IMG/VR virus record: IMGVR_UViG_3300002242_001627
Span: 1 to 21,644 of that record
DNA from: a virus
Strand: one strand, 5' to 3'
Length of the DNA: 21,644 bases
Shown here: positions 2,662 to 21,644 of the stretch, piece by piece
Position numbering within the stretch: position 1 is the stretch's first letter
Layout: each line of letters opens with the position of its first letter
Translations under genes and position numbers: made by a program
Notes under the pieces: model-generated
What the model was told of the DNA's origin: nothing
The model's input: only the letters and a program-made list of their open reading frames with translations
Databases searched by the model: none

Positions 2662-2695
2662 ACCCCATATCTTACTTAGGTGTGGGGTTTTTTTT
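2662..2695 (+). terminator. Intrinsic terminator after the SSB gene
   Basis: ACCCCATATC (2662-2671) pairs with GGTGTGGGGT (2679-2688) as a 10-pair stem including two G-U pairs around the loop TTACTTA, followed by a T-run to 2695. It lies between SSB and the primase-helicase start at 2712. No promoter is visible between it and that gene, so downstream genes probably depend on read-through. Confidence 0.85.
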
Positions 2696-2711
2696 ATGCC
2701 TGAAGGAAAAT

Positions 2712-4394
2712 ATGAATGAAGATAAGGGAAGACTAGTTAAGTCAGACCAACCGTGTGATTTTGACGGTTGTGACTCATCTGATGGCAAAGCATATTACGA
2801 TAACGGAGATAAGATTACTTCTTTCTGTTTTGTATGTAGACAGTCTAAAGTAGAAGAATACAAAGATAGCTATAAATGGGAGGCCCCCAAAGTGACAACA
2901 GATTTTGAAGATGTAGAAGCAGTAAATGATATTAAGAATGATTTTGAGATAAGAGGTTTTGAAGAAAGAAAGATACCCAAGATCATATCAGAGGCTTATG
3001 GTGTTAAGGTGGGGTACGATAATAATAGAAACATCAGGTACCACTACTACCCCGTATTAGGCCAGAATAACCAAATAGAAGGCTATCAAAGAAGGGATGT
3101 AGAAAACAAGAAGTTTATAGGAATAGGTGACGTAGGTAATGAGCAGCAGTTGATCGGGTCTGACGTATCTAGTTCTAAAAACATACTAGTTATTACGGAA
3201 GGTGTACTTGATGCAATGTCTTATCAGACAGTGTTATATAAGAAGTACAAGAGGTTCTTTCCCGTAGTCAGTTTAATTAATGGTACAGGTGGTGCCAAGA
3301 AACAAATCGCCCACAACCTTGAATTCATCAATACCTTTGAGAAGGTAGTACTTATGTTTGATACTGATGAACAAGGAAGAGAGGCAAGCTATCACTGTGC
3401 TAAGATGATTAGGACGGGTAAAGCTTATATAGCTGAACTTGGTAAACACGGTAAAGATGCCTCTGACTATCTCATGGATGGTAAAGATAAAGAGTTAAGC
3501 AATGCTGTATGGGAGGCTAAACAGTATTCCCCTGCAGGTATTATCAACTCCAAAGATACTTATGATGAGTTTGTCAAGGATAGGAGAGAAGATTCAGTAC
3601 CGTACCCTGATTGTTTTGGTAATGTGAATGCTATGACATATGGCAGACGTACAGGTGAGTTGACTATCTTTACAGCAGGTACTGGTGCAGGTAAGTCTAC
3701 TTTCTCTAAGGAAGACATCTATCACCTACTAATGACTACTGAAGATAAGGTGGGTATTGTATCTCTGGAGGAAAGTATAAGAGAGACAATGGATAGAGTT
3801 GTAGGTGTCCATATCAACCAACCTATCTATTTACCTGATTCAGATTTTGACCGTAAGGGAGAGGAAGGTAAGAAGGCTTGGGAAGAGACAATGGGGTTAG
3901 GTAGATTAACTCTATTAGACCACCAGGGGTCTGTAGCTGATGATTCACTTATGACTAAGATGGAATACATGGTGGCCTTAGGTTGTAAGTGGTTGTACTT
4001 AGATCACATTACTATGGCTGTGTCTGAGGTTGATGGTAATCAGAACCAAGCTATGGATAAGGTTATGTCTGACTTACTTAAGTTATGTAAGAAGCATGAT
4101 GTATGGATTGGTGTTGTATCTCACTTGAGGAAGGCACCTTCTGGTGGTAAATCATTTGAGGCAGGTGCTGAGATTACTGAAGATGACTTAAAAGGATCTG
4201 GTTCACTTAAGCAGATCTCAATGCAGACTATAGCCTTCTCTAGAAACAAACATGCTGATACAGATGATAAGAGACAAGAGGTTAAGGTTTCTGTACTTAA
4301 GAATAGATTCTCAGGAACTATTGGTCCTGCTGGTAAGGCTAGGTATGACAGTGCCACAGGGAGGTTGTACAAAGTACTTAGTGAATTTGAATAG
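2712..4394 (+). CDS. Bifunctional DNA primase-helicase (T7 gp4-like)
   Basis: This gene encodes 560 residues, close to T7 gp4 (566). The N-terminal zinc-binding module has C15/C20 and C39/C42. A TOPRIM primase domain follows, with ITEGVLDAM (E163) and the metal-binding DTDEQGR (D217, D219). The RecA-like hexameric helicase has Walker A GTGAGKST at 323-330, Walker B WLYLDH near 427-432, and the LKGSGSLKQ segment at 493-501 before an Arg-Asn pair typical of the DnaB/gp4 family. The protein primes lagging-strand synthesis and unwinds DNA ahead of the polymerase. The ATG at 2712 is preferred (AAGGAA just upstream; begins MNEDKG). An in-frame GTG at 2682 lies inside the terminator stem and would encode its T-run. 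The C-terminus LSEFE is acidic with a penultimate aromatic residue, reminiscent of the gp4 tail that contacts polymerase. Confidence 0.96.
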   Translation: MNEDKGRLVKSDQPCDFDGCDSSDGKAYYDNGDKITSFCFVCRQSKVEEYKDSYKWEAPKVTTDFEDVEAVNDIKNDFEIRGFEERKIPKIISEAYGVKVGYDNNRNIRYHYYPVLGQNNQIEGYQRRDVENKKFIGIGDVGNEQQLIGSDVSSSKNILVITEGVLDAMSYQTVLYKKYKRFFPVVSLINGTGGAKKQIAHNLEFINTFEKVVLMFDTDEQGREASYHCAKMIRTGKAYIAELGKHGKDASDYLMDGKDKELSNAVWEAKQYSPAGIINSKDTYDEFVKDRREDSVPYPDCFGNVNAMTYGRRTGELTIFTAGTGAGKSTFSKEDIYHLLMTTEDKVGIVSLEESIRETMDRVVGVHINQPIYLPDSDFDRKGEEGKKAWEETMGLGRLTLLDHQGSVADDSLMTKMEYMVALGCKWLYLDHITMAVSEVDGNQNQAMDKVMSDLLKLCKKHDVWIGVVSHLRKAPSGGKSFEAGAEITEDDLKGSGSLKQISMQTIAFSRNKHADTDDKRQEVKVSVLKNRFSGTIGPAGKARYDSATGRLYKVLSEFE

Positions 4395-4402
4395 GAGGAA
4401 GT

Positions 4403-5356
4403 ATGAGTATCCCAGACGTGAAGACGTATCACTTAGATCCAAAAGATAAGATACTTAGAGCTTGTGATGACTATGTGACATCTAATGCTTGGATGTTAGG
4501 AGCAACAGGTTTTGGTGCTAAATCTACTTGGGGCGGTAACCCAGATCAAGTACTTGATCAAGATGACCCGAATAATGAAGAGTGGTTCGGTATGTACAAC
4601 CAAGACGAGACAGGCTTTCAATGTGTCTTAAACTCTGATGGGACGGTGTATGGTAGTGAGAAGATAAAAAGATTACCTGCTGTTTCTGGGGTTTGGAGAC
4701 AGCCTTATGGTTGGGATGACAAAAGTGTTAAGAGAAGAGCAGCCCCAGTGTGGGATCTGTTTGATTATATAAATAGTAAATTCTTCAACAATGCATTTTG
4801 TTTAGACGGTTTCGGTGAGGAAGTGGGTGGTACTCGTCCTTATTGGAGTCCTAAGTGGGGTGACCCAGACATACCTGGTTTTGGCACTATGCCTGAGAGA
4901 GGTGACCCACCATCTATATGGACAGCATACTGCACAGGTAAAACAGGAGGGGTTAAATTCAGACACCCACAGGGTGGTAGACCTAGGCAGACTAAGAAGA
5001 TGATGAGGCACTCAGCAGGACCGCATAGGGATGCTAGTGTTGATACGGAAGAGGAATGTGAAGGCTATTTCTCTATTGTGGTTGTTATGAACCCATTTTG
5101 GAAACCATCATGGGAAGGGGCTACTTTTTACCATGAAACTGTAGACCCTAAAGATGCTATAGAAGTTCATCATAAGAGGGGTTATGGTATTGGTTGGCAA
5201 AAGGTATGCACACCACAACAACCTGGAAATGTCTATCTTGTACCATCATCCGCTATACACACAGCATTTGATAGATATGTTCCTAATAGGACTGATTACC
5301 AAAGAAGAATGATGTTCAGGGTTAGATATAAAGATTTATTAAACGAAGACTTGTAG
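4403..5356 (+). CDS. Putative 2-oxoglutarate/Fe(II)-dependent oxygenase
   Basis: This gene encodes 317 residues. The C-terminal third looks like a double-stranded beta-helix oxygenase. The motif SAGPHRDAS gives H208-x-D210, followed by beta-strand-like segments (SIVVVMNPFW, GNVYLVPSS), a distal His at H286 (SSAIHTAFD), then Arg residues R301/R302/R306 in a YQRRMMFRVRY strand where the 2-oxoglutarate-binding Arg is expected. The order and spacing (HxD, about 76 residues, H, about 15-20, R) fit the superfamily. The N-terminal 200 residues are Trp/Gly/Pro-rich and unrecognised. GGAGG lies five bases before the ATG, nine bases after the helicase gene and eight bases before the polymerase. The location suggests a role in DNA metabolism, such as base oxidation or repair, but the substrate is unknown; a protein hydroxylase is an alternative. 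The family call rests on motifs only. Confidence 0.6.
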   Translation: MSIPDVKTYHLDPKDKILRACDDYVTSNAWMLGATGFGAKSTWGGNPDQVLDQDDPNNEEWFGMYNQDETGFQCVLNSDGTVYGSEKIKRLPAVSGVWRQPYGWDDKSVKRRAAPVWDLFDYINSKFFNNAFCLDGFGEEVGGTRPYWSPKWGDPDIPGFGTMPERGDPPSIWTAYCTGKTGGVKFRHPQGGRPRQTKKMMRHSAGPHRDASVDTEEECEGYFSIVVVMNPFWKPSWEGATFYHETVDPKDAIEVHHKRGYGIGWQKVCTPQQPGNVYLVPSSAIHTAFDRYVPNRTDYQRRMMFRVRYKDLLNEDL

Positions 5357-5364
5357 GGGGTTAT

Positions 5365-7329
5365 ATGAGGTTGATTTTTGATCTAGAGGCAAATGGCCTC
5401 ATGGAAGAGGTAGATAAGCTTTGGTGTATTGTAGCTTATGATCTGGATTCTCAAAAGACCCATGTGTTTACTGATAACGACAGAGGGTGTAAGGGTATAT
5501 CTGAAGGTCTTGCTCTACTACAAAAGGCTGAAACACTTATAGGACATAACATAATAATGTATGACTTGCCTGTTCTTGATAAGTTGTTCGGTATAAAGTT
5601 AGAAGGCAAGATTATTGACACCTTCCTACTTAGTCAAATGTTGGACTTCAATAGAAGACTTAAGTTCTCACAAGGTAGGCACGGTCTTAAGAATTGGGGT
5701 GAATACTTTGACGTACCTAAGCCTAAACAAGAGCAATGGACTAAGTGGGAACCAAACATGCTCCACAGGTGTATAGAGGATGTACGTATTAACGTACTAG
5801 TCTATAGACATCTTATTAAAGAACAAAAGAATGTCCAGATACCTAAAAGTACCATGCTTAGGGAGATGGAGGTTGCCTCTATCAGTGCCCAACAGGTTAA
5901 GAATGGTTGGTTGTTTAATAGAAGGTTAGCTGAGAGACATATTAACTTCTTAGATAGAGAGCTAGAGAGGATAGCTAATCTAGTAGAACCCCTGCTGCCT
6001 AATGTAGTCAAATGTAGGGATACTTGGATTACTAATGAAGAGTGTAATGAGTTGTTAGGAACTGAGGGTGTTTCGTATGACTTCGGTTTAGAGAATAAGA
6101 AACTAAGAGAGCCTAAGACTAAGTTATTTACTATGTCAGGAAAGATACATAGTAATACAGCTAAGTGGTTCAATATATCACCTGACGATGTGCACCTAAT
6201 AGGTGGTCCATACTGCAGGGTTGAGTTTATACCTGTCACCATGACTCAAACTTCTGAGATAAAGAAGTTCTTGTTTACTCAAGGGTGGAAGCCCACTCAG
6301 TGGAATATGAAGATCAATGAGGACGGTGAGAAGGTAAGAACTTCAGCTAAACTTACTGAGGATTCTTTTGAATCTATTGAAGGTGATATTGGTAAAGATC
6401 TGGCCTTACACGCTATCTACCGACACAGAAGAAATACCATTCTTAATATGAAGAACGATAAGAAAGGTTGGTTAGGTGTTATGAGAGATGACTCTAGAGT
6501 GGAGTGTGTGCCATTTACGTTAGGTACTGCTACAGGTCGTATGTCACATAGGAAGCTTGTTAATGTACCAGGGGCTAAATCAGTCTTTGGTAAGGAAATG
6601 AGAGAATTGTTTATAGCGCCTAGAGGGGATGTCTTAGTAGGATGTGATCTATCATCTGCTCAGTTGAGGTTGTTAGCCTCTGCAATGGAGGATGACGATT
6701 ACTCTGAAACAGTACTTACAGGTGAAGAGGCTAATGGTACGGATATTCATACTGTAAATGGTATTTCAGCAGGTCTAATTGACCCAAATTGGCCTTTAGA
6801 TAGTCAAGAGAGATCTAGTGGTAGGTCGAACAGTAAAACATTCATCTACGCTATGTTATTTGGATCTGGTGATGCCAAGATTGGGACTATTGTTGGTGGT
6901 ACATCAAGGGATGGTAGGAAACTTAAGAGTAAATTCCTTAACAACCTACCCTCCCTAAGTACATTGATAAACAAACTTAAGGATCAATACAAAGAGTCAG
7001 GTAAGAAGTTTATTAAGCTACAAGACGGTAAGAAGATACAGGTGGATTCTGACCATAAAATACTTAACTATAGGTTGCAAGGTGATGAAGCTACACTTAC
7101 TAAGGAATGGATGTGTGTATCTGATAAGAGGATTAAGAAGGAAGGGTTAAGATGTAATCTTCTTGCTGTTATGCACGATGAGCAGAACTTTGAATGTCAT
7201 CCTGATGATGCAAAAAGGTTGGCTAAGTTATTAGAGGAAACAGCTACTGAGGCAGGGGAGAACTTAGGTTTTAACTGTAGGATGGACGGTAGTTCTAAGA
7301 TAGGTAAAAATTGGTATGAGATACATTGA
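5365..7329 (+). CDS. Family A DNA polymerase with 3'-5' exonuclease domain (T7 gp5-like)
   Basis: This gene encodes 654 residues (T7 gp5 has 704). The proofreading domain has Exo I FDLEANGL (D6, E8), Exo II IGHNIIMYDLP (D67) and Exo III CIEDV (D139). The position where a Tyr usually stands four residues before D139 is Arg (R135). Polymerase motif A is GCDLSSAQLR (D428), with Gln433 where T7 and Pol I have the Glu sugar-selectivity residue. Motif B is RSNSKTFIYAMLFG (R487, K491, Y495). Motif C is AVMHDEQ (H604, D605, E606). The protein ends NWYEIH, matching the C-terminal His of family A enzymes. The 50-residue shortfall appears to fall in the thumb region, where T7 carries its thioredoxin-binding loop. 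GGGGG precedes the ATG. It lies directly behind the oxygenase-like gene in the replication block. Confidence 0.95.
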   Translation: MRLIFDLEANGLMEEVDKLWCIVAYDLDSQKTHVFTDNDRGCKGISEGLALLQKAETLIGHNIIMYDLPVLDKLFGIKLEGKIIDTFLLSQMLDFNRRLKFSQGRHGLKNWGEYFDVPKPKQEQWTKWEPNMLHRCIEDVRINVLVYRHLIKEQKNVQIPKSTMLREMEVASISAQQVKNGWLFNRRLAERHINFLDRELERIANLVEPLLPNVVKCRDTWITNEECNELLGTEGVSYDFGLENKKLREPKTKLFTMSGKIHSNTAKWFNISPDDVHLIGGPYCRVEFIPVTMTQTSEIKKFLFTQGWKPTQWNMKINEDGEKVRTSAKLTEDSFESIEGDIGKDLALHAIYRHRRNTILNMKNDKKGWLGVMRDDSRVECVPFTLGTATGRMSHRKLVNVPGAKSVFGKEMRELFIAPRGDVLVGCDLSSAQLRLLASAMEDDDYSETVLTGEEANGTDIHTVNGISAGLIDPNWPLDSQERSSGRSNSKTFIYAMLFGSGDAKIGTIVGGTSRDGRKLKSKFLNNLPSLSTLINKLKDQYKESGKKFIKLQDGKKIQVDSDHKILNYRLQGDEATLTKEWMCVSDKRIKKEGLRCNLLAVMHDEQNFECHPDDAKRLAKLLEETATEAGENLGFNCRMDGSSKIGKNWYEIH

Positions 7330-13692: not shown

Positions 13693-15333
13693 TTATCTGC
13701 CAAAATTGGAATTGAAATCATCATCTAGTTTCTTCTGACTTTTAGTCCTGAAGTTCTCACGGAACGATTTATCTAACTCAGCCTTCTCCTTTTCAGATAC
13801 ATGTTTTCCATAGAAAGCAGCACCTGTAACCGTGGCAGCACCTGTTGTTGTGTAACCTAAAGTAGTATCTAAGACTCTCCTAGCAGAAGCTTGGTCACCT
13901 TTCATGATCTTAGTTAGGGCACTTAAGGCCACACTAGGTTTAGGTGGGTTCTTAGAGAACTGTTTTACAGCCCAAGTTTGGAAACCCTTAGAGTTGAATA
14001 ACTTACTAGCACCTAAGGCACCACCAAGTCCTGAGATAAGAGTACCTACAGCACTTCCACCCTGAGCACCGACAGTACCACCAAGGGCCATACCGAATAC
14101 CTTAGACATCCAACCACTCAAATTGCCCGATAAAGTCTCTGTCTCCTTAAAGATTCTACCCCAGTCATCGAAAGACTTTTTGTGTTCTGGCCACAGCTTT
14201 TTAAGTGCAGCCCTTCCACTTGGGTGTGTTATGTAGTTCTTGAACGTACTAGATTCACCATGAAACAAGTGTGAACCCATAGCATCTTTTAGGTTACCCA
14301 TCTGTTGAGTGGCAAAACCTTTACTCCCAGAAAGACTCTCTAGTGTCTTCATATCACGATGAAATTCATCAATAGAATGTACTGCCTTCTTGGGGTTGGT
14401 CTGTATTCTTGATATTAAGTTATGTGCTTCTGAGTTTTTACCCTCTTCACCTGCTCGGAATATAGCCTTATTCTTTTTAAAATCAAAGTGTCTGGAGTAT
14501 CTATCATCGAGTGCTTTCACTTCTTTAGCGAAATTAGGGTTACCCAGGTCTTTACCTACAATATCTGCTTGAGATCTAAAGACCTCTCTAGAATCGTTTT
14601 GTAGGTTTTTGAGAGACATCTCTGCATTCCTAAGCTCCTTAGGTCCCATGTTCCTTCTTGAGTCTGTTAACAGCCTACCAGTGAGTGCCCTGTACTTTCT
14701 TAAACCCTTAGATGGGGAGATCTCGCCATTCTGTATTGCTTTTACAATATCCTCCAGATCCTTAACAATAGGGATACCTTTTTGACTGTGAAACTTAGTA
14801 GTAAGCTCTTCTAGTTTGTTGGCAATCCTGTTTGGTTGAGACTTAGACTGCATGTTGTACTTCTTGAAACCTTCTTTAAAACCATTCTCCATTTGTTTAA
14901 TAGAGTCATGTAGGTTCGTTTGGAAGTTATCGACAGCTTTATGGAAAGAAGTAGTAGGTTGAATCACATCCTCTGCTAAATTCTTAACACCACCTCTGAT
15001 AGCAGGCTCACCACCTAGTTGTGTTGCGACAGATTGTTTAGTACCTTTATATAAATCCTTTGTGAATTTGAAAGGCCAAGACACAAATTTACCCGTACCA
15101 GAACCTACCTTGTTTAAGGAAGGCTTACCCTCAGGGTACACTGCTGCATCATCGAGTATCAAAGCCTCGTCTGTCTGTTTTGTTATATCTTCTGCATTAT
15201 CAGCCCCGTTAGCTTTCCTAGCCTTAGCTCTAGCTGCGTTTGCAAGATCTTGTAGGGGTGTCTTTGATTTGGTCTTAGAAGCATCACGACCAAGATCTTT
15301 TACAATCTCCCCTGCTTTTTTCCTAATACTCAT
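13693..15333 (-). CDS. Putative internal virion / DNA-ejection protein (546 aa)
   Basis: This gene encodes 546 residues. The N-terminal 60 residues are basic and Ala-rich; residues 120-330 are long charged helices (LTTKFHSQKGIPIVKDLEDI and similar). There are two hydrophobic, Gly/Ala-rich stretches near 411-446 (KVFGMALGGTVGAQGGSAVG) and 490-508, followed by a charged tail ending NSNFGR. Helical proteins with late Gly-rich hydrophobic segments are typical of podovirus ejection proteins that insert into the host envelope. AAGGAG lies eight bases before the ATG, which overlaps the previous stop (ATGA). It is the last gene before the shared terminator. No enzymatic motif is seen. Role is inferred from composition and position. 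Confidence 0.6.
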   Translation of the reverse strand: MSIRKKAGEIVKDLGRDASKTKSKTPLQDLANAARAKARKANGADNAEDITKQTDEALILDDAAVYPEGKPSLNKVGSGTGKFVSWPFKFTKDLYKGTKQSVATQLGGEPAIRGGVKNLAEDVIQPTTSFHKAVDNFQTNLHDSIKQMENGFKEGFKKYNMQSKSQPNRIANKLEELTTKFHSQKGIPIVKDLEDIVKAIQNGEISPSKGLRKYRALTGRLLTDSRRNMGPKELRNAEMSLKNLQNDSREVFRSQADIVGKDLGNPNFAKEVKALDDRYSRHFDFKKNKAIFRAGEEGKNSEAHNLISRIQTNPKKAVHSIDEFHRDMKTLESLSGSKGFATQQMGNLKDAMGSHLFHGESSTFKNYITHPSGRAALKKLWPEHKKSFDDWGRIFKETETLSGNLSGWMSKVFGMALGGTVGAQGGSAVGTLISGLGGALGASKLFNSKGFQTWAVKQFSKNPPKPSVALSALTKIMKGDQASARRVLDTTLGYTTTGAATVTGAAFYGKHVSEKEKAELDKSFRENFRTKSQKKLDDDFNSNFGR

Positions 15334-16004
15334 TTGTCTTTCTCCTTTTGGAACTTACTAAAATCAGGTTGGTAGGTGTTCTCCCTATTAGGGTTAACCA
15401 TATCTAAAGGAACCCCATCTGAATCAACACCACCACCTGTGGCTGGTGGGTAAAGAGCGCTTAGTACGCCCGAACCAATTTTAACACCCGACCTAAACAA
15501 AGCATCAGCTGCCGCATAAAACCCTGTTTCAGATGCAGATTCTTTAGCGGCCCCTTCGTAGTCTGGGTTAGCCTTCAAGGACTCTTTATATAATTGCACA
15601 GGCATATCTACTAGACCGAAGGCACCACCTGTTTTTAAGGGCTGAAGTGGTGGTTTGGTCTTAAGACCAGTTACCACTGCTGCGATATCACCTAACACAT
15701 CTGAACCAGAGTGAATGTTTGTTTTAACATCATTCATATTAGTGTCATATAGGTCTGAGAATGTCCCTTCAGTGAAGTAAGGGGTGAGGTCGTTTTTATC
15801 CTTGTCTATAATTGGCTTCCCACTTTTAGCAGCCTCTAGTCTTTTCCTAGAGTACCAATCGGTGAGACCTTTAGTGTCATCACCTTCGTAATTCTTTCTA
15901 GTCGAAAGGTAGTATAGACTCTTTAACTCGTTAAAGGAGTCTTCCCTGTCTTGCCTACGTTGTTGTCTACGTTGTTCCAACATTCGGTTGGTAATTTTTG
16001 GCAT
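15330..16004 (-). CDS. Hypothetical virion-module protein (224 aa)
   Basis: This gene encodes 224 residues. The N-terminus is very basic and Gln/Arg-rich (MLEQRRQQRRQDRED), followed by helices and a moderately hydrophobic middle (VLGDIAAVVTGLKTKPPLQP, near 103-122). A Gly/Ala-rich stretch (SGVKIGSGVLSALYPPATGG) precedes a hydrophilic tail. AGGAGGT lies five bases before the ATG. It shares four bases with the next gene and follows the 906-residue protein gene by eight bases, so it belongs to the same transcript. Probably an internal or ejected virion component; no family recognised. Confidence 0.55.
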   Translation of the reverse strand: MPKITNRMLEQRRQQRRQDREDSFNELKSLYYLSTRKNYEGDDTKGLTDWYSRKRLEAAKSGKPIIDKDKNDLTPYFTEGTFSDLYDTNMNDVKTNIHSGSDVLGDIAAVVTGLKTKPPLQPLKTGGAFGLVDMPVQLYKESLKANPDYEGAAKESASETGFYAAADALFRSGVKIGSGVLSALYPPATGGGVDSDGVPLDMVNPNRENTYQPDFSKFQKEKDK

Positions 16005-16012
16005 ATAACCTC

Positions 16013-18733
16013 CTATTTAAACTTAGACAACGCATCCATTGCAGCCCGTTTCTGAGCATCAGTTGGGTTCTCCATACCATTAACAATAGACCTTAACTCA
16101 TCCGCAGATGTAGCATTATTTATAGCATCTATAGAGGTTTTCTCCACCTCAGTCACCTCAACATGTTTAGCCTTAAGAGCTGCCTCGACCTCACCAGAAG
16201 TAGGAAGTTCTATTCTGTTATCTAGATCCCATTGGTGTGTAAATGACTCCAATCCTTCCATAGAAGGGGTTCTCTTTTCTCTTTTCACCTTAGCAATCCA
16301 ATCGTTGATAGCTTTGTTTCTTCTAATATCGTTATCAGCAAATCTATCCGCTGTCTCAAGGATAAGTCTAATACCAGCAGGGGTCATATGCAGTCCTGCA
16401 GATGCTTTCCTGAACTGATCCATTTCTGCATTAGAGATAGCACCCTTAGTGTCAGAGATATAAAGTAGCATAGACTCTAAGGTTTTCTGCATAATAAGCT
16501 CACCAGATGCTGCTTCCTCTGTCTCTATCCCCAAAAGCTCAGATGCAAGAGTTCTAGCAGATTGTCTTAAGTTGCCTAAGAACTTACCAGTCCCTATTTC
16601 AGACTCTTCTAATACTCTTCTGAACTGTGAAGAGTTTGCCTGAGTTTTTCTAGCTCTATCTGTCTCTCCTCTAAGTACCTCTTGGTACTCGATCACTTTC
16701 TTCTCAGAAGTTTCATCACCCTTAGCCCTAGTATCTATAGTAGTCCTATCTTCATGTGCACCCGTATCGATAACTGTCTTATCTTCATGTTCACCCACAT
16801 CGATTTTGGATTGGCCTTGTTTGAGTAGTAATTTCTCAGCTAAAGTAAGAGAATCGTTTCCAACAGTTCTATCTAGTGAAGCCATATCTTCTACATAGCC
16901 TGGGTTCTCTTTATCACCCTTATACTTAGCAAGAATCTTAGACTGCTCTTTCTTATAATATTGATGATCTTTCATCTGTGCGGTCCAACCATCTTGAACA
17001 CCCTCAGCGAAACCCTTAAAGGCAAACTCAGCAGAATCATGAGGACTGTAACCGAATAGGCGAGAACCTGCATACAGCACTAAAGCTCTCATAATCTCTT
17101 GACTTGTAATACCTGTTAACTCTGTAAAACCTGCCATTAGATCAGAAATCCAAGATGTAGCATCCTTGTCTTCACCACCATCGGCCATCTTCTTAAGGTC
17201 TTTCTCAGCACCCTCTTCACTTGAGAATAAATCAGTAACACCGTCAATAACAGCTCCAGCAGCTACAACAGGGGCACCTACAACAGCCATTACAGCATTA
17301 CCTGCAGTGTCTAGTAGCCACTCACCTGCTTCGGCAAGTACATTACCTGCCTGGTCAACAAGTTCACCACCGTCAGTTTCCATCCATTCACCTGCGGATG
17401 CAATTAACTCACCTGCTGTCTCACTTGCACTGTCTATACCCTCACTAACAGCACTCTCTAATTCACCAGCTGCATTCTCAACCCAATCACCTGCTTCAGC
17501 AATAATAGCTCCTGCTTCATCGATAGCATTACCTGCTTCATCGACAACCCAATCACCTGCTTCAGCTAGGGTAACAACACCTGCCCCTGCAGTTATCTTA
17601 GCAGCGTTAGACGCATCACTTAGTAGTTCAATACTGCCGTCAGCTAATGCCTGTGCAACTTCATCTACTTTAGCAACAAAGTCATTAACAGCTTCAATAG
17701 TAACAGGGTTGTCAATTTCACCTGTGTTAACCAATGCTTGCTCTAAGTTAGCCGTAGCTAATTCAGGACTCTCTACGATCTCTAGTACCTTCTCCTCTGA
17801 TAAATCCACTGTTTCAGGGGCATGCTCTGTAATGACTTCTTCTTGACCTAAGTCAACCATTTCAGGAGCAACCTGTGATGCAATAACATCCTCAGGAGAC
17901 TCTAATACTTCTTCTGGAGCAAAGGCCTGTGTAAGATCTAAAGGAGTCTCTTCTGGACCACCTGTAGGGACCATCATTTGCTCATTTAATCCTTGATCAT
18001 TAAGCTGTCGATCCATTGTCTCAACAAACTTACTATCGTCCACAGGTTGTCCAATTTGGGCCTGTAGAGGGTCTAATGTAGGGTCTATTGTAGGCTCTAA
18101 CGTAGGTAGTAATGCGGCTATATCTTGCTCTGTAATAGGGGCTTGTTGTACTTCACCTTGTTGTACTTCACCTTGTTGTACTTCACCTTGTTGTACATCA
18201 CCACCACTTAGGAAGTCTGTGACAGCCTCAGGAGTACCTGTTGCAGCCTCTTTCTTGCCTTCTGTAGTAGTTCCTGCAACAAATGGTGTGGATGCTGTAA
18301 TTTGGTTATTCTTAGCATCTTTATTGGGTCTGTTGTTCTTGAACTCAAACTTACCACCGTCAAGGGTCTCACCAGAGATCTTCTCCAGATCATTATCGTT
18401 ATCTGTGACAGTCTTAAACATGTCTTCTAGACCACCTTTATTCATGACAGTCTTAGAGTCCTCTGCTTCTTGTTCTGCTATTAATCCATCTATAACGGCT
18501 TCTTTTTCAGCTTCTACAATACTGTCTAAGGAGATAACATCACTAGGGATAATATCAAAACCGTCTCTCGTAATTGGTGCTTCGACAGTCTGTGCTGTAT
18601 CGTCTACCAAGCTTTCTTCTACCCATTGGTAGCCATTACCTTCACAGGTACCTTGACTCTCATAGATACCACCGTAATTCTCGACAGTATCACTGAGTCT
18701 CTCACCAGTATTTGGGTTTACACAATATCCCAT
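16013..18733 (-). CDS. Large repeat-rich putative internal virion protein (906 aa)
   Basis: This gene encodes 906 residues. Residues 1-40 form a small Cys module (GYCVNPNTGERL, then C30 and GYQWV). Residues 40-350 are acidic, low complexity and probably disordered, and include a VQQGE tandem repeat at 180-197. Residues 378-500 are an Ala/Gly-rich array of degenerate repeats with recurring AEAGDW/AGEW and DEAGN units ending in a hydrophobic VMAVVGAPVVAAGAVIDGV. Residues 525-600 are helical (LVLYAGSRLFGYSP); 642-674 hold three 11-residue repeats (IDTGAHEDRTT type); the remainder is long charged helices. AGGAG precedes the ATG. The size and helical ends suggest a counterpart of T7 gp15/gp16 ejection proteins, but no lysozyme-like catalytic motif is visible. 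Tape-measure or scaffold-like roles are alternatives. Confidence 0.6.
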   Translation of the reverse strand: MGYCVNPNTGERLSDTVENYGGIYESQGTCEGNGYQWVEESLVDDTAQTVEAPITRDGFDIIPSDVISLDSIVEAEKEAVIDGLIAEQEAEDSKTVMNKGGLEDMFKTVTDNDNDLEKISGETLDGGKFEFKNNRPNKDAKNNQITASTPFVAGTTTEGKKEAATGTPEAVTDFLSGGDVQQGEVQQGEVQQGEVQQAPITEQDIAALLPTLEPTIDPTLDPLQAQIGQPVDDSKFVETMDRQLNDQGLNEQMMVPTGGPEETPLDLTQAFAPEEVLESPEDVIASQVAPEMVDLGQEEVITEHAPETVDLSEEKVLEIVESPELATANLEQALVNTGEIDNPVTIEAVNDFVAKVDEVAQALADGSIELLSDASNAAKITAGAGVVTLAEAGDWVVDEAGNAIDEAGAIIAEAGDWVENAAGELESAVSEGIDSASETAGELIASAGEWMETDGGELVDQAGNVLAEAGEWLLDTAGNAVMAVVGAPVVAAGAVIDGVTDLFSSEEGAEKDLKKMADGGEDKDATSWISDLMAGFTELTGITSQEIMRALVLYAGSRLFGYSPHDSAEFAFKGFAEGVQDGWTAQMKDHQYYKKEQSKILAKYKGDKENPGYVEDMASLDRTVGNDSLTLAEKLLLKQGQSKIDVGEHEDKTVIDTGAHEDRTTIDTRAKGDETSEKKVIEYQEVLRGETDRARKTQANSSQFRRVLEESEIGTGKFLGNLRQSARTLASELLGIETEEAASGELIMQKTLESMLLYISDTKGAISNAEMDQFRKASAGLHMTPAGIRLILETADRFADNDIRRNKAINDWIAKVKREKRTPSMEGLESFTHQWDLDNRIELPTSGEVEAALKAKHVEVTEVEKTSIDAINNATSADELRSIVNGMENPTDAQKRAAMDALSKFK
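16712..16810 (-). repeat. Three 33-base units encoding 11-residue repeats
   Basis: Within the 906-residue protein, residues 642-674 read as SKIDVGEHEDK, TVIDTGAHEDR, TTIDTRAKGDE: three imperfect 11-residue units. Hendecad repeats favour a coiled coil. The DNA copies are diverged but alignable. Confidence 0.6.
18142..18201 (-). repeat. Four tandem 15-base repeats
   Basis: On the plus strand the unit CTTGTTGTACTTCAC occurs four times head to tail; the first three are identical and the fourth has one change. It encodes the VQQGE pentapeptide array of the 906-residue protein. Being in-frame and near-identical, it is a probable site of recent slippage expansion. Confidence 0.9.
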
Positions 18734-18754
18734 ATATTTCTCCTAATTTGTTGT

Positions 18755-19234
18755 TTATGCACCTGCACCAGCAAGCATTTTAAAGATAGCCATATAGTCA
18801 ATATCTTTCAAGACCTCTCTGGTATTACCCTGAGCATCGGCCATCATTCTAGAGTCCTTAGCTGGGTCTGCCGCAGTAGCTTTAGCTACAGTCGGGTCTA
18901 CTGTTATTCCACCCGTATTCTGTGTAACACTTGTAGGACCACCCTCTGTAAACACCTTACTTTCTAGTTTATTAGATAAGGCAGCAGGTGCCTCTGTTGG
19001 ACCCATGTTGACTGCTTTAGATAGGGAACCGACATCTTTTATACCGTTAGCGAGTACTTCATCTTGTTGATCCAACATATCTGTAGTTGGAGGTGGTGCA
19101 GTAGGTGATGGTGGTGGTGTTATTTTTGTATCCCCAAAAGGGCCCTTCTCACCACCTATATTACCAGTACCTACAGTCTTTTCAGACAACTCTTTAAGCT
19201 TTTGCTTAAACATAGGATCGTTCATAAAATTCAT
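18755..19234 (-). CDS. Hypothetical virion-module protein, Pro/Ala-rich (159 aa)
   Basis: This gene encodes 159 residues. After a short helical start (MFKQKLKELSEKT) there is a Pro/Thr linker (ITPPPSPTAPPPTTD, near 38-52), then Ala/Thr/Gly-rich, probably disordered sequence, and a short C-terminal helix (DIDYMAIFKMLAGAGA). GGAGG lies six bases before the ATG. The stop is 21 bases before the 906-residue gene start, in the same transcript. No motif is recognised. The composition resembles flexible structural or linker proteins. Confidence 0.6.
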   Translation of the reverse strand: MNFMNDPMFKQKLKELSEKTVGTGNIGGEKGPFGDTKITPPPSPTAPPPTTDMLDQQDEVLANGIKDVGSLSKAVNMGPTEAPAALSNKLESKVFTEGGPTSVTQNTGGITVDPTVAKATAADPAKDSRMMADAQGNTREVLKDIDYMAIFKMLAGAGA

Positions 19235-19243
19235 AATACCCTC

Positions 19244-19786
19244 CTATTTATTGTATAGTTCATTGTAAACAGCTCTTGCAGCTAACTCACCGTTCTTCAT
19301 AAATGCCTCACCCACCTTACCACCAACACTTTTAATCCAATCAGGTGTGTCATCAGGCCAACCGAACTCAAAGGACTCATAGTGTCCATGTTTGTCTAAA
19401 GGACCCTCTAAAGGCCTATTACCAGGGTGTTTCAGTTTGTCAGGGTTGTTACTGCCTAAGATTTTATTATCGATTTGATTATAAGCATCCATCTTCTCAT
19501 TATACTTTTGAAACTCTTCATTCCTCTCACCTAAGACACCCTGTAGTTTACTTCCAGCACTGTTAAATAAGTTACCAAGTACACCCATACCAGTCTCTAG
19601 TAAGACCTTCTCCCCCTCACCAGGTGGTAGTATTGCACCAGGACCCTTCATACCCTCATTTATTTGTGTACCCTTTTCGGTACTAAATTGGGAACCTTGG
19701 GCAAGTAGGGCCTCCATTTGTCTCTTCTCTTCTGCTAGTCTCTCAGCTTCTGTATAGAACAGTTTTCTATTTTCTTGTTCAGGCAT
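19244..19786 (-). CDS. Hypothetical virion-module protein (180 aa)
   Basis: This gene encodes 180 residues. It starts with a charged helix (FYTEAERLAEEKRQMEALLA), then a Gly/Pro linker (MKGPGAILPPGEGEK), an amphipathic segment (TGMGVLGNLFNSAGSKLQG) and a C-terminal domain with His, Trp and Asp (GHYESFEFGWPDDTPDWIK). GGAG lies eight bases before the ATG. It lies between two other low-complexity genes of the leftward operon. No family is recognised. It may be a minor virion component. Confidence 0.6.
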   Translation of the reverse strand: MPEQENRKLFYTEAERLAEEKRQMEALLAQGSQFSTEKGTQINEGMKGPGAILPPGEGEKVLLETGMGVLGNLFNSAGSKLQGVLGERNEEFQKYNEKMDAYNQIDNKILGSNNPDKLKHPGNRPLEGPLDKHGHYESFEFGWPDDTPDWIKSVGGKVGEAFMKNGELAARAVYNELYNK

Positions 19787-19804
19787 TATTATTCTCCAAA
19801 ATTA

Positions 19805-20419
19805 CTAAAAGTCACTCACAGCAGAGTCATCCTCTTCTGAGTTAGAAAAACCACCTAACCCCTCAGCAGTACCAAAACTACTATCACCAGAGTCACTATA
19901 ACTACCTGAATCAGAACCACCATAACTACCTGAGTCGGAACCACCATTATCTCCTGAGAAATAAGAGTTGTCTTGGTTCACATCTTGGCCATAGTATGAG
20001 TTGTTTTGACCATTACTGAGCACACCTGTACTGTTACCAGGGGCAGTATTAGCCTTAGTGTTGTTCTTATTGATACCAGAGATACTAAATGGGCTCTTGT
20101 CCCCACCCATGTAGTTAATGGTATTATGCTCAGGGAGAGTACTACCTAATGTGTTATGCTCAGGGGCATTACTACCAAACGTAGTCTTACCACCCCAGAA
20201 TTCACCTAAGAAGTTACCTAGGTCGAAGTCAGGCATGTCGTTATCACCTATAAAGGATGTTTGACCACTATTTTTAAACTGTTGATACTCGGATCCTGGA
20301 TCGGTACTCCAAGCTGGACGCATTAATCTGTCGTAGTTGGTGTGGGGTGCTGTGGGCATATTGTCATGGTCCCAGTTTTTAGGAGCCCATTCATTACTTA
20401 GAAAACCATTAACAGCCAT
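19805..20419 (-). CDS. Low-complexity Gly/Ser/Asp-rich virion-module protein (204 aa)
   Basis: This gene encodes 204 residues. The N-terminal 70 residues carry Trp/Asn/Asp motifs (NEWAPKNWDHDN, NFLGEFWGGK). Two 10-residue repeats with PEHNT follow near 82-101. The last 80 residues are almost all Gly, Ser, Asp, Asn and Tyr, with repeated SGSYGGSD units, ending acidic (SEEDDSAVSDF). No hydrophobic segment is present. The ATG is two bases after the previous stop, and the ribosome site (GGCGG) is weak, suggesting coupling. Low-complexity tails like this are often disordered. Function is unknown. Confidence 0.6.
   Translation of the reverse strand: MAVNGFLSNEWAPKNWDHDNMPTAPHTNYDRLMRPAWSTDPGSEYQQFKNSGQTSFIGDNDMPDFDLGNFLGEFWGGKTTFGSNAPEHNTLGSTLPEHNTINYMGGDKSPFSISGINKNNTKANTAPGNSTGVLSNGQNNSYYGQDVNQDNSYFSGDNGGSDSGSYGGSDSGSYSDSGDSSFGTAEGLGGFSNSEEDDSAVSDF
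19898..19945 (-). repeat. Two tandem 24-base units (SGSY/GGSD repeat)
   Basis: ATAACTACCTGARTCRGAAC followed by CACC occurs twice head to tail (19898-19921 and 19922-19945) with two differences. It encodes the GGSDSGSY octapeptide repeats in the 204-residue protein. Confidence 0.8.
20121..20180 (-). repeat. Two tandem 30-base units (PEHNT repeat)
   Basis: Units 20121-20150 and 20151-20180 share TTATGCTCAGG and ACTACC and encode FGSNAPEHNT and LGSTLPEHNT in the 204-residue protein. The copies are clearly related but diverged, indicating an older duplication than the 15-base array at 18142. Confidence 0.7.
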
Positions 20420-20421
20420 GA

Positions 20422-21168
20422 CTATTTACCGCCAGTCTGTACAGTGTTGTTCTCTCTTGGAATAATACCTTGGTACATACCTGATACATTCTGTAAACCC
20501 TTAAGTACAGAGTCTAATTGAGCCTGATCTTGAGATTGAATAACCTGACCTACTTGTCCTAATGTCTGGGCACCCATAGTTTCAATACCCTGTTGAGCAC
20601 CTGTAGCCTGTTGGTAACCTGCTGCAGCCTGTGCTTGTCTATTAAGCTCTTGATTCTCAATGTCATAGAAAGCTCTTCCTAAGTCATTCTCCATACCCAT
20701 ACGGCTCAATGCTTGTCTAGAACCACCTAGGTTACCTGAGGCACCTGCTGATCCTAATAGTTTATTCATACCCTGTTGGGCACCCATCATAGCCATATTA
20801 CGGGCAGCAGAGGTATCTCTAGCTCCCATATCAGACTTAATACGATCTAACGCACCTCTAGACTCTACAGCCATCTGGTCTTGTCTATCCGCAGCACCAC
20901 GACCCCTCTGTAGGGCCTCTAGTTGGTCTGCTGATAAGTCTGCAACCTTACTCAGGTCACCTGCATTGTAGGCATTTTGAGCATTCTCCATAACCTGAGT
21001 TATGTAAGGAAGGAACTCCTTAGGATAACTTGAGGTTGAGGTCGTTGTCTTCTTTCCTTTGCATTCTGCAATCTCTACATCTTCAGGTATAAAGTAGAAG
21101 TTTTCCTTCTCTAAGTACATACCTTCGTCTGTCATTTGCCAAGTGGCTCCAGTCGTAATCTTACGCAT
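20422..21168 (-). CDS. Gln/Ala/Gly-rich internal virion protein (gp14-like, tentative)
   Basis: This gene encodes 248 residues. After a 45-residue N-terminus, residues from about 50 on are helical, with YPKEFLPYITQVMENAQNAY, then Met/Gln/Ala/Gly-rich stretches (AMMGAQQGMNKLLGSAGASG, QAAAGYQQATGAQQG) and a Gln-rich helix to the end. This composition and its place right after a gp13-like gene fit T7 gp14, a small Gln/Ala-rich ejection protein that enters the outer membrane. No identity is claimed beyond composition and order. AAGGAG lies seven bases before the ATG, which overlaps the upstream stop by eight bases. Confidence 0.6.
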   Translation of the reverse strand: MRKITTGATWQMTDEGMYLEKENFYFIPEDVEIAECKGKKTTTSTSSYPKEFLPYITQVMENAQNAYNAGDLSKVADLSADQLEALQRGRGAADRQDQMAVESRGALDRIKSDMGARDTSAARNMAMMGAQQGMNKLLGSAGASGNLGGSRQALSRMGMENDLGRAFYDIENQELNRQAQAAAGYQQATGAQQGIETMGAQTLGQVGQVIQSQDQAQLDSVLKGLQNVSGMYQGIIPRENNTVQTGGK

Positions 21169-21616
21169 CTGATTCTCCTTTTAATTCCATATCCATTGTG
21201 ATATATTGTTCCTTCCAGCCAATACTTTTAAGTTTCCTCAACCAACCTCTTCTTCCTGTAAACTCAATTCTATCAAGACCAGCCTCTCTAGCCATCTTAA
21301 TAACGGGCTCTAAAGCCTCCTCTTGATAGTCTTCCCATCTTATATCTTCATCAGTATCTACATTAGCTAATGTGATAATATGAAGTGATGAGAAAGAGCC
21401 ATAATTGATAGATCTGGTACTTGCCAAAGCAACTACCTTACCATCATTAGATATTTCCCACAGGTGAAATAATAGTGGTTGTACCATTATCTCTTTTAGT
21501 ATTTCATTAGAAGTCCACTCACCCCTAGAGTAGGCCAAAGCTTTCTCTAAGTAGGGCTTAATGTGGACCCATCTGTCTAAACATTCATCTTGTGTTAACA
21601 TTCTTATATCGTACAT
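21161..21616 (-). CDS. gp13-like internal virion protein with GNAT-type fold (tentative)
   Basis: This gene encodes 151 residues. The C-terminal half has the alternating strand/helix pattern of a GNAT acyltransferase-like fold (GKVVALASTRSI, then LHIITLANVD, AREAGLDRIEFTGRRGW, LKSIGWKEQYITMDMEL). T7 gp13 (138 residues) has a similar end in which Phe-Leu-Lys-Thr-Ile-Gly precedes a Glu-Glu-Tyr strand. The usual acetyl-CoA loop (Q/RxxGxG/A) is not visible, so catalytic activity is doubtful and a structural use is likely. ATG 21616 is chosen because AAGGAG lies upstream; the frame continues to 21643, but those codons overlap what looks like an upstream stop (TAA at 21633-21635, read on the minus strand). 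It is the first complete gene of the leftward arm in this window. Confidence 0.6.
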   Translation of the reverse strand: MYDIRMLTQDECLDRWVHIKPYLEKALAYSRGEWTSNEILKEIMVQPLLFHLWEISNDGKVVALASTRSINYGSFSSLHIITLANVDTDEDIRWEDYQEEALEPVIKMAREAGLDRIEFTGRRGWLRKLKSIGWKEQYITMDMELKGESDA

Positions 21617-21644
21617 TCCTTCTCCTTCTTTCTTAGTAACCATC

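Follow-up and report, generated by a model that had tools for sequence, protein, structure and literature searches.

The gene between the primase-helicase and DNA polymerase genes of the uncultured virus IMGVR_UViG_3300002242_001627 very probably encodes a 2-oxoglutarate (2OG)/Fe(II) oxygenase of 317 amino acids, as judged from its sequence and a predicted structure. The reading we favor, at a probability of about 0.82 for its two parts jointly, is that of an intact PHD/EGLN-like Fe(II)/2OG oxygenase encoded by a laterally acquired accessory gene. The enzyme class, which a preliminary description of the same DNA had proposed from a pattern of residues, is now strongly supported by conservation of the iron ligands, a jelly-roll model, sub-threshold matches to a Pfam oxygenase family, and profile alignment to cyanophage oxygenases.

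Genomic context of the oxygenase gene

We analyzed positions 1 to 21,644 of the record, referred to here as the window. The oxygenase gene (4403..5356, plus strand, ATG start) was assigned from the ORF list, a family alignment, an AlphaFold model, and a structural match to PHD2. When its coordinates were checked, the gene was found as previously described, with 8 bases separating it from the stop of the upstream primase-helicase gene (phrog_239; 2682..4394, plus strand) and another 8 from the start of the downstream family A DNA polymerase gene (phrog_17; 5365..7329, plus strand). A putative Shine-Dalgarno sequence, AGGAGG (4393..4398, plus strand), overlaps the helicase stop codon and, from its position, would serve the oxygenase gene. 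Profile matches show that the flanking genes, neither of which is part of the oxygenase system, encode a T7-type primase-helicase and a family A polymerase. The early region of the window also encodes an exonuclease, a gp2.5-like single-stranded-DNA-binding protein, the end of a phage-type RNA polymerase, ribonucleotide reductase, PhoH, and endonuclease I, and the whole is autographivirus-like.

Sequence and profile searches

The window protein alone had no match in Pfam, PHROGs, or NCBIfam and no significant match in sequence searches of the PDB, and tblastn searches with it and then with its relatives against 50,697 phage records found nothing. Degenerate-pattern scans of viral contigs also yielded no relatives; a pattern from the N-terminal part then succeeded, and N-terminal patterns, followed later by family-motif patterns, identified relatives in uncultured viral contigs that are 30 to 62% identical to the window protein. 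Pattern-based scans of 84,980 bacterial and archaeal genomes found no relative, so a host origin is unsupported.

Most of the relatives have sub-threshold matches to PF13640 (2OG-FeII_Oxy_3) or PF13661 over the iron-binding region, the best at 5.6e-5. The scores are at most 24.4 bits, in a relative, against a cut-off of 27; the C-terminal part of the window protein scores 15.3 bits, and the full-length protein gives no match. No curated family model scored above its cut-off for the window protein or its relatives. The PHROG 61 profile, which matched three cyanophage positive controls, had no match in the window record. When we used hhalign to compare the family with eight PHROG 61 oxygenases of cyanophages, collected as a control, the alignment had a probability of 81% (P = 1.3e-5) and placed H-x-D on H-x-D and the distal H on H.

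Conservation of the iron-binding residues

The residues highlighted in the preliminary description (H208, D210, H286, R301, R302, and R306) are located at these positions in the window protein. As a bare pattern they are weak evidence and within chance, since an HxD...H...R pattern with loose spacing occurred in 1,547 of 5,000 shuffles of the protein (31%). The question therefore had to be settled by conservation and fold. The pattern becomes significant because the ligands are conserved in relatives. In the family alignment of paralogues and orthologues, H208 and D210 of the H-x-D motif (H208-R209-D210; 5024..5032, plus strand), the distal ligand H286 (5258..5260, plus strand), which aligns with the His of the cyanophage oxygenases, and R306 do not vary among the 13 sequences that cover them, whose identity to the window protein is 30 to 61%. 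Position 302 (5306..5308, plus strand) is R in 12 of these 13 and K in the one divergent copy, so that a basic residue, a feature of the superfamily, is always present at the start of the model strand spanning residues 300 to 309. In the same divergent copy R301 is replaced by Gln, which makes R302 the better candidate for the 2OG anchor.

In the predicted active site, H208, D210, and H286 would hold iron, and R302 (or R301) would anchor 2OG. By analogy with the superfamily, decarboxylation of 2OG with O2 would be coupled to hydroxylation of a substrate.

Other conserved positions distinguish the family. A signature at residues 258 to 264 (KRGYGIG; 5174..5194, plus strand) is absent from the cyanophage PHROG 61 enzymes and from a distant family member (L102). 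Family-specific invariants in the N-terminal part comprise W104, S108, R111, R112, N124, E139, and IWTxY at positions 172 to 176, with W104 and R111 scored as nearly invariant; A113 is conserved as well. In the clade of the window protein, Ala replaces the acidic residue of a WGG(E/D) motif found in the paralogues, so the substrate of this clade may differ from theirs.

Predicted fold

An AlphaFold model built on a 15-sequence family alignment (pLDDT 79, pTM 0.83) is a double-stranded beta-helix, in agreement with the beta-rich context proposed earlier and with the jelly-roll core expected of 2OG oxygenases. A model built from the single sequence had a pLDDT of 29 and was discarded. The preliminary description had named two findings that would count against it, a fold lacking a jelly-roll core and variable iron ligands; both were checked, and both checks favored the oxygenase reading. 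The jelly-roll model resembles PHD2, OkaE, WelO5, and Tpa1. In Foldseek searches of the PDB, the top matches were all 2OG oxygenases, with the best E-values for OkaE, WelO5, and FtmOx1, and the named matches among viral structures were mostly 2OG oxygenases as well. Whole-fold comparison ranked the HIF prolyl hydroxylase PHD2/EGLN1 first (Z = 12.5; root mean square deviation, 4.2 Å over 177 residues). This match spans model residues 2 to 315 and includes N-terminal elements, so the N-terminal 200 residues (4403..5002, plus strand) appear to be mostly a PHD-type scaffold of helices and strands. The part viewed earlier as unfamiliar is thus largely of a known type, plus an insert at residues ~34 to 69 that is predicted with low confidence; it also carries the family-specific invariants. 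The window protein is only about 10% identical to PHD2, the substrate-recognition loops of the two are not comparable, and the regulatory context of PHD2 is missing in the phage.

Two uncharacterized proteins of uncultured Caudovirales in BFVD, A0A6J5T324 and A0A6J5LYG4, match the window model over its whole length (E = 1.4e-14 and 2.3e-13, respectively) at 16 to 17% identity. EGLN3-like phage proteins have been described in the Phold paper (PMC12774648), and a 2OG-Fe(II) oxygenase has been reported on SUP05 phage contigs (PMC4164917). Phage PHD-like oxygenases are therefore already known, and the window gene is a sequence-divergent member. The cyanophage enzymes of PHROG 61 share with the window family the jelly-roll HxD...H arrangement, a PHD/EGLN-like fold, occurrence in several copies per phage, and marine hosts. 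In contrast, they are only ~180 to 240 amino acids long, and neither the KRGYGxG insert nor the extended conserved region at the N terminus is present in them.

Relatives in tandem arrays of T4-like phages

The relatives with visible genomic context belong to T4-like phages, in which the gene order is portal, prohead protease, major capsid, tail tube, oxygenase array, UvsY, UvsW-type helicase, and late sigma factor. The oxygenases in these uncultured marine phages (loci L080, L081, L082, L083, L086, L088, and L092) are 39 to 62% identical to the window protein and have its domain layout, ligands, and KRGYGxG motif in common. They differ from it in number and place: arrays contain two (L088/L092 and L082), three (L080), or four (L086) paralogues after the tail-tube gene, whereas the window has a single copy at the helicase-polymerase junction. 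The last array copies also have a Cys-rich, zinc-ribbon-like C-terminal tail (L080:5635-6825, L082:1113-2162, L083:2-751, and L088:6125-7384) that the window copy lacks. The family makes up a well-delimited clade that forms arrays and whose invariant residues are clear.

A 79.5-kb T4-like contig carries an additional copy away from the array, a divergent third oxygenase (L102:2504-3346) without the KRGYGxG insert. As judged by eye from translations, the genes near it encode an asparagine-synthase-like enzyme, a TRAP-type solute-binding protein, and a radical-SAM enzyme. Immediately 3' of the array in L088, an ORF (L088:7384-7959) appears by eye to encode another short 2OG oxygenase relative, with H-D-N in place of H-x-D; it has no Pfam match.

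In a phylogenetic tree, the window gene falls within the diversity of the T4-like paralogues, where its sister group is the clade formed by the last copies of the arrays (support, 96/97). Metagenomes that yielded T4-like carriers also yielded close relatives of the window phage (taxon codes 3300001392 and 3300001680) or a more distant relative (3300001679). We also considered a mosaic origin, with an N-terminal part from the last copy and a C-terminal tail like that of the middle copies; sliding identities do not require a mosaic.

Insertion at the helicase-polymerase junction

Among 72 related contigs that contain both neighbors, the gap between helicase and polymerase is 8 to 293 bases and holds no oxygenase gene, even in relatives whose polymerases are 86 to 93% identical to that of the window. 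The junction sequence is otherwise unchanged, so that the insertion extends from after the helicase stop to before the polymerase ribosome-binding site. These close relatives with and without the gene constitute a natural plus/minus pair. In one relative, whose polymerase is 91% identical, an HNH endonuclease gene (L002:12136-12597; HNH_3, E = 3.9e-17) lies between nrdA and nrdB, where the window has none. The presence of this gene at another junction of the same operon indicates that such junctions accept cargo.

The simplest account of these sequence comparisons is that the window oxygenase gene is laterally acquired accessory cargo from a T4-like lineage. At its helicase-polymerase junction, an autographivirus-type phage would have gained one oxygenase gene equipped with a ribosome-binding site of its own; this gene shares its lineage with the last array copy of co-occurring T4-like phages. 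From the few genomes available, we infer transfer from T4-like phages to the window phage. The case would be an example of T4-like and T7-like phages from the same waters exchanging accessory genes. It also cautions that a replisome location is a poor guide to function. The preliminary description had inferred function from this location, an argument that does not stand: the insertion is lineage specific, and the other relatives have virion genes as neighbors in T4-like phages. The flanking replisome genes therefore do not by themselves point to a role in DNA metabolism.

Possible substrates of the oxygenase

2OG oxygenases are numerous in marine phages, and the published accounts that we found give no tested substrate. 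Within this superfamily, the fold does not reveal the substrate class. Our leading guess, held at slightly below even odds, is that the enzyme modifies a protein side chain of host or phage by prolyl-type hydroxylation, a view suggested by the predicted fold, through the match to PHD2, and by the known phage EGLN-like proteins (PMC12774648). A more elaborate version seems quite unlikely: a distinct phage protein-hydroxylase family, multiplied in tandem among T4-like phages and handed on to a T7-like phage, would act during infection on a protein of replication, the ribosome, or the virion, and its inserted copy would be co-expressed with the replisome to modify it. Not far behind a protein side chain comes hydroxylation of a small molecule, sugar, or lipid, acting on host metabolites or surface glycans, which we consider less likely than not. 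Many 2OG enzymes act on natural products and glycans, the best PDB E-values are those of natural-product oxygenases, sugar-nucleotide genes (e.g., a UDP-glucose-dehydrogenase-like gene) occur near the T4-like arrays, and three relatives have weak matches to the FlmC family (E = 0.017). However, the first rank of PHD2 in the whole-fold comparison argues against a small-molecule substrate, as does the lack of a glycan or biosynthesis gene adjoining the window copy.

A DNA or RNA base is a less likely substrate. A TET/JBP-like or AlkB-like DNA-base oxidase, working with the neighboring replisome genes to modify or repair phage DNA, would fit the adjoining helicase and polymerase, the recombination genes uvsY and uvsW that follow the T4-like arrays, and a chemistry common to the superfamily. 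We consider it improbable and without specific support, because the replisome position is not conserved and the T4-like arrays are directly 3' of the tail-tube gene. In addition, the AlkB motif R-x-N-x-T-x-R of the last strand has no counterpart in the window protein, which has RRMMFRVR there, conserved in relatives. No DNA methyltransferase or glycosyltransferase partner was recognized among the genes scanned in the window, itself a fragment, and AlkB and TET/JBP models were not among the profile matches reported, an absence that is weak evidence. Slightly more improbable still is that the enzyme drains 2OG to tune host nitrogen signaling, with its product secondary. Sullivan 2010 (PMC3037559) put forward such a role for the 2OG oxygenases of cyanophages and for their multiplicity; that work and the report from SUP05 phages (PMC4164917) make 2OG oxygenase genes a known feature of marine phages. 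Several copies per genome are found in the T4-like relatives too. Against control of 2OG levels, the diverged N-terminal part has invariants of its own, which implies that selection has favored a specific substrate; in addition, uncoupled turnover by 2OG oxygenases is normally slow, and no 2OG-sensing regulator was seen here.

Minus-strand genes of the window

For the minus-strand genes at positions 13693 to 21643 of the window, no PHROG family is convincing. The first of them is only 26% identical to the gene at the same place in a related contig (L001), compared to 88 to 97% for most replication genes, which suggests exchange or fast evolution of the minus-strand module.
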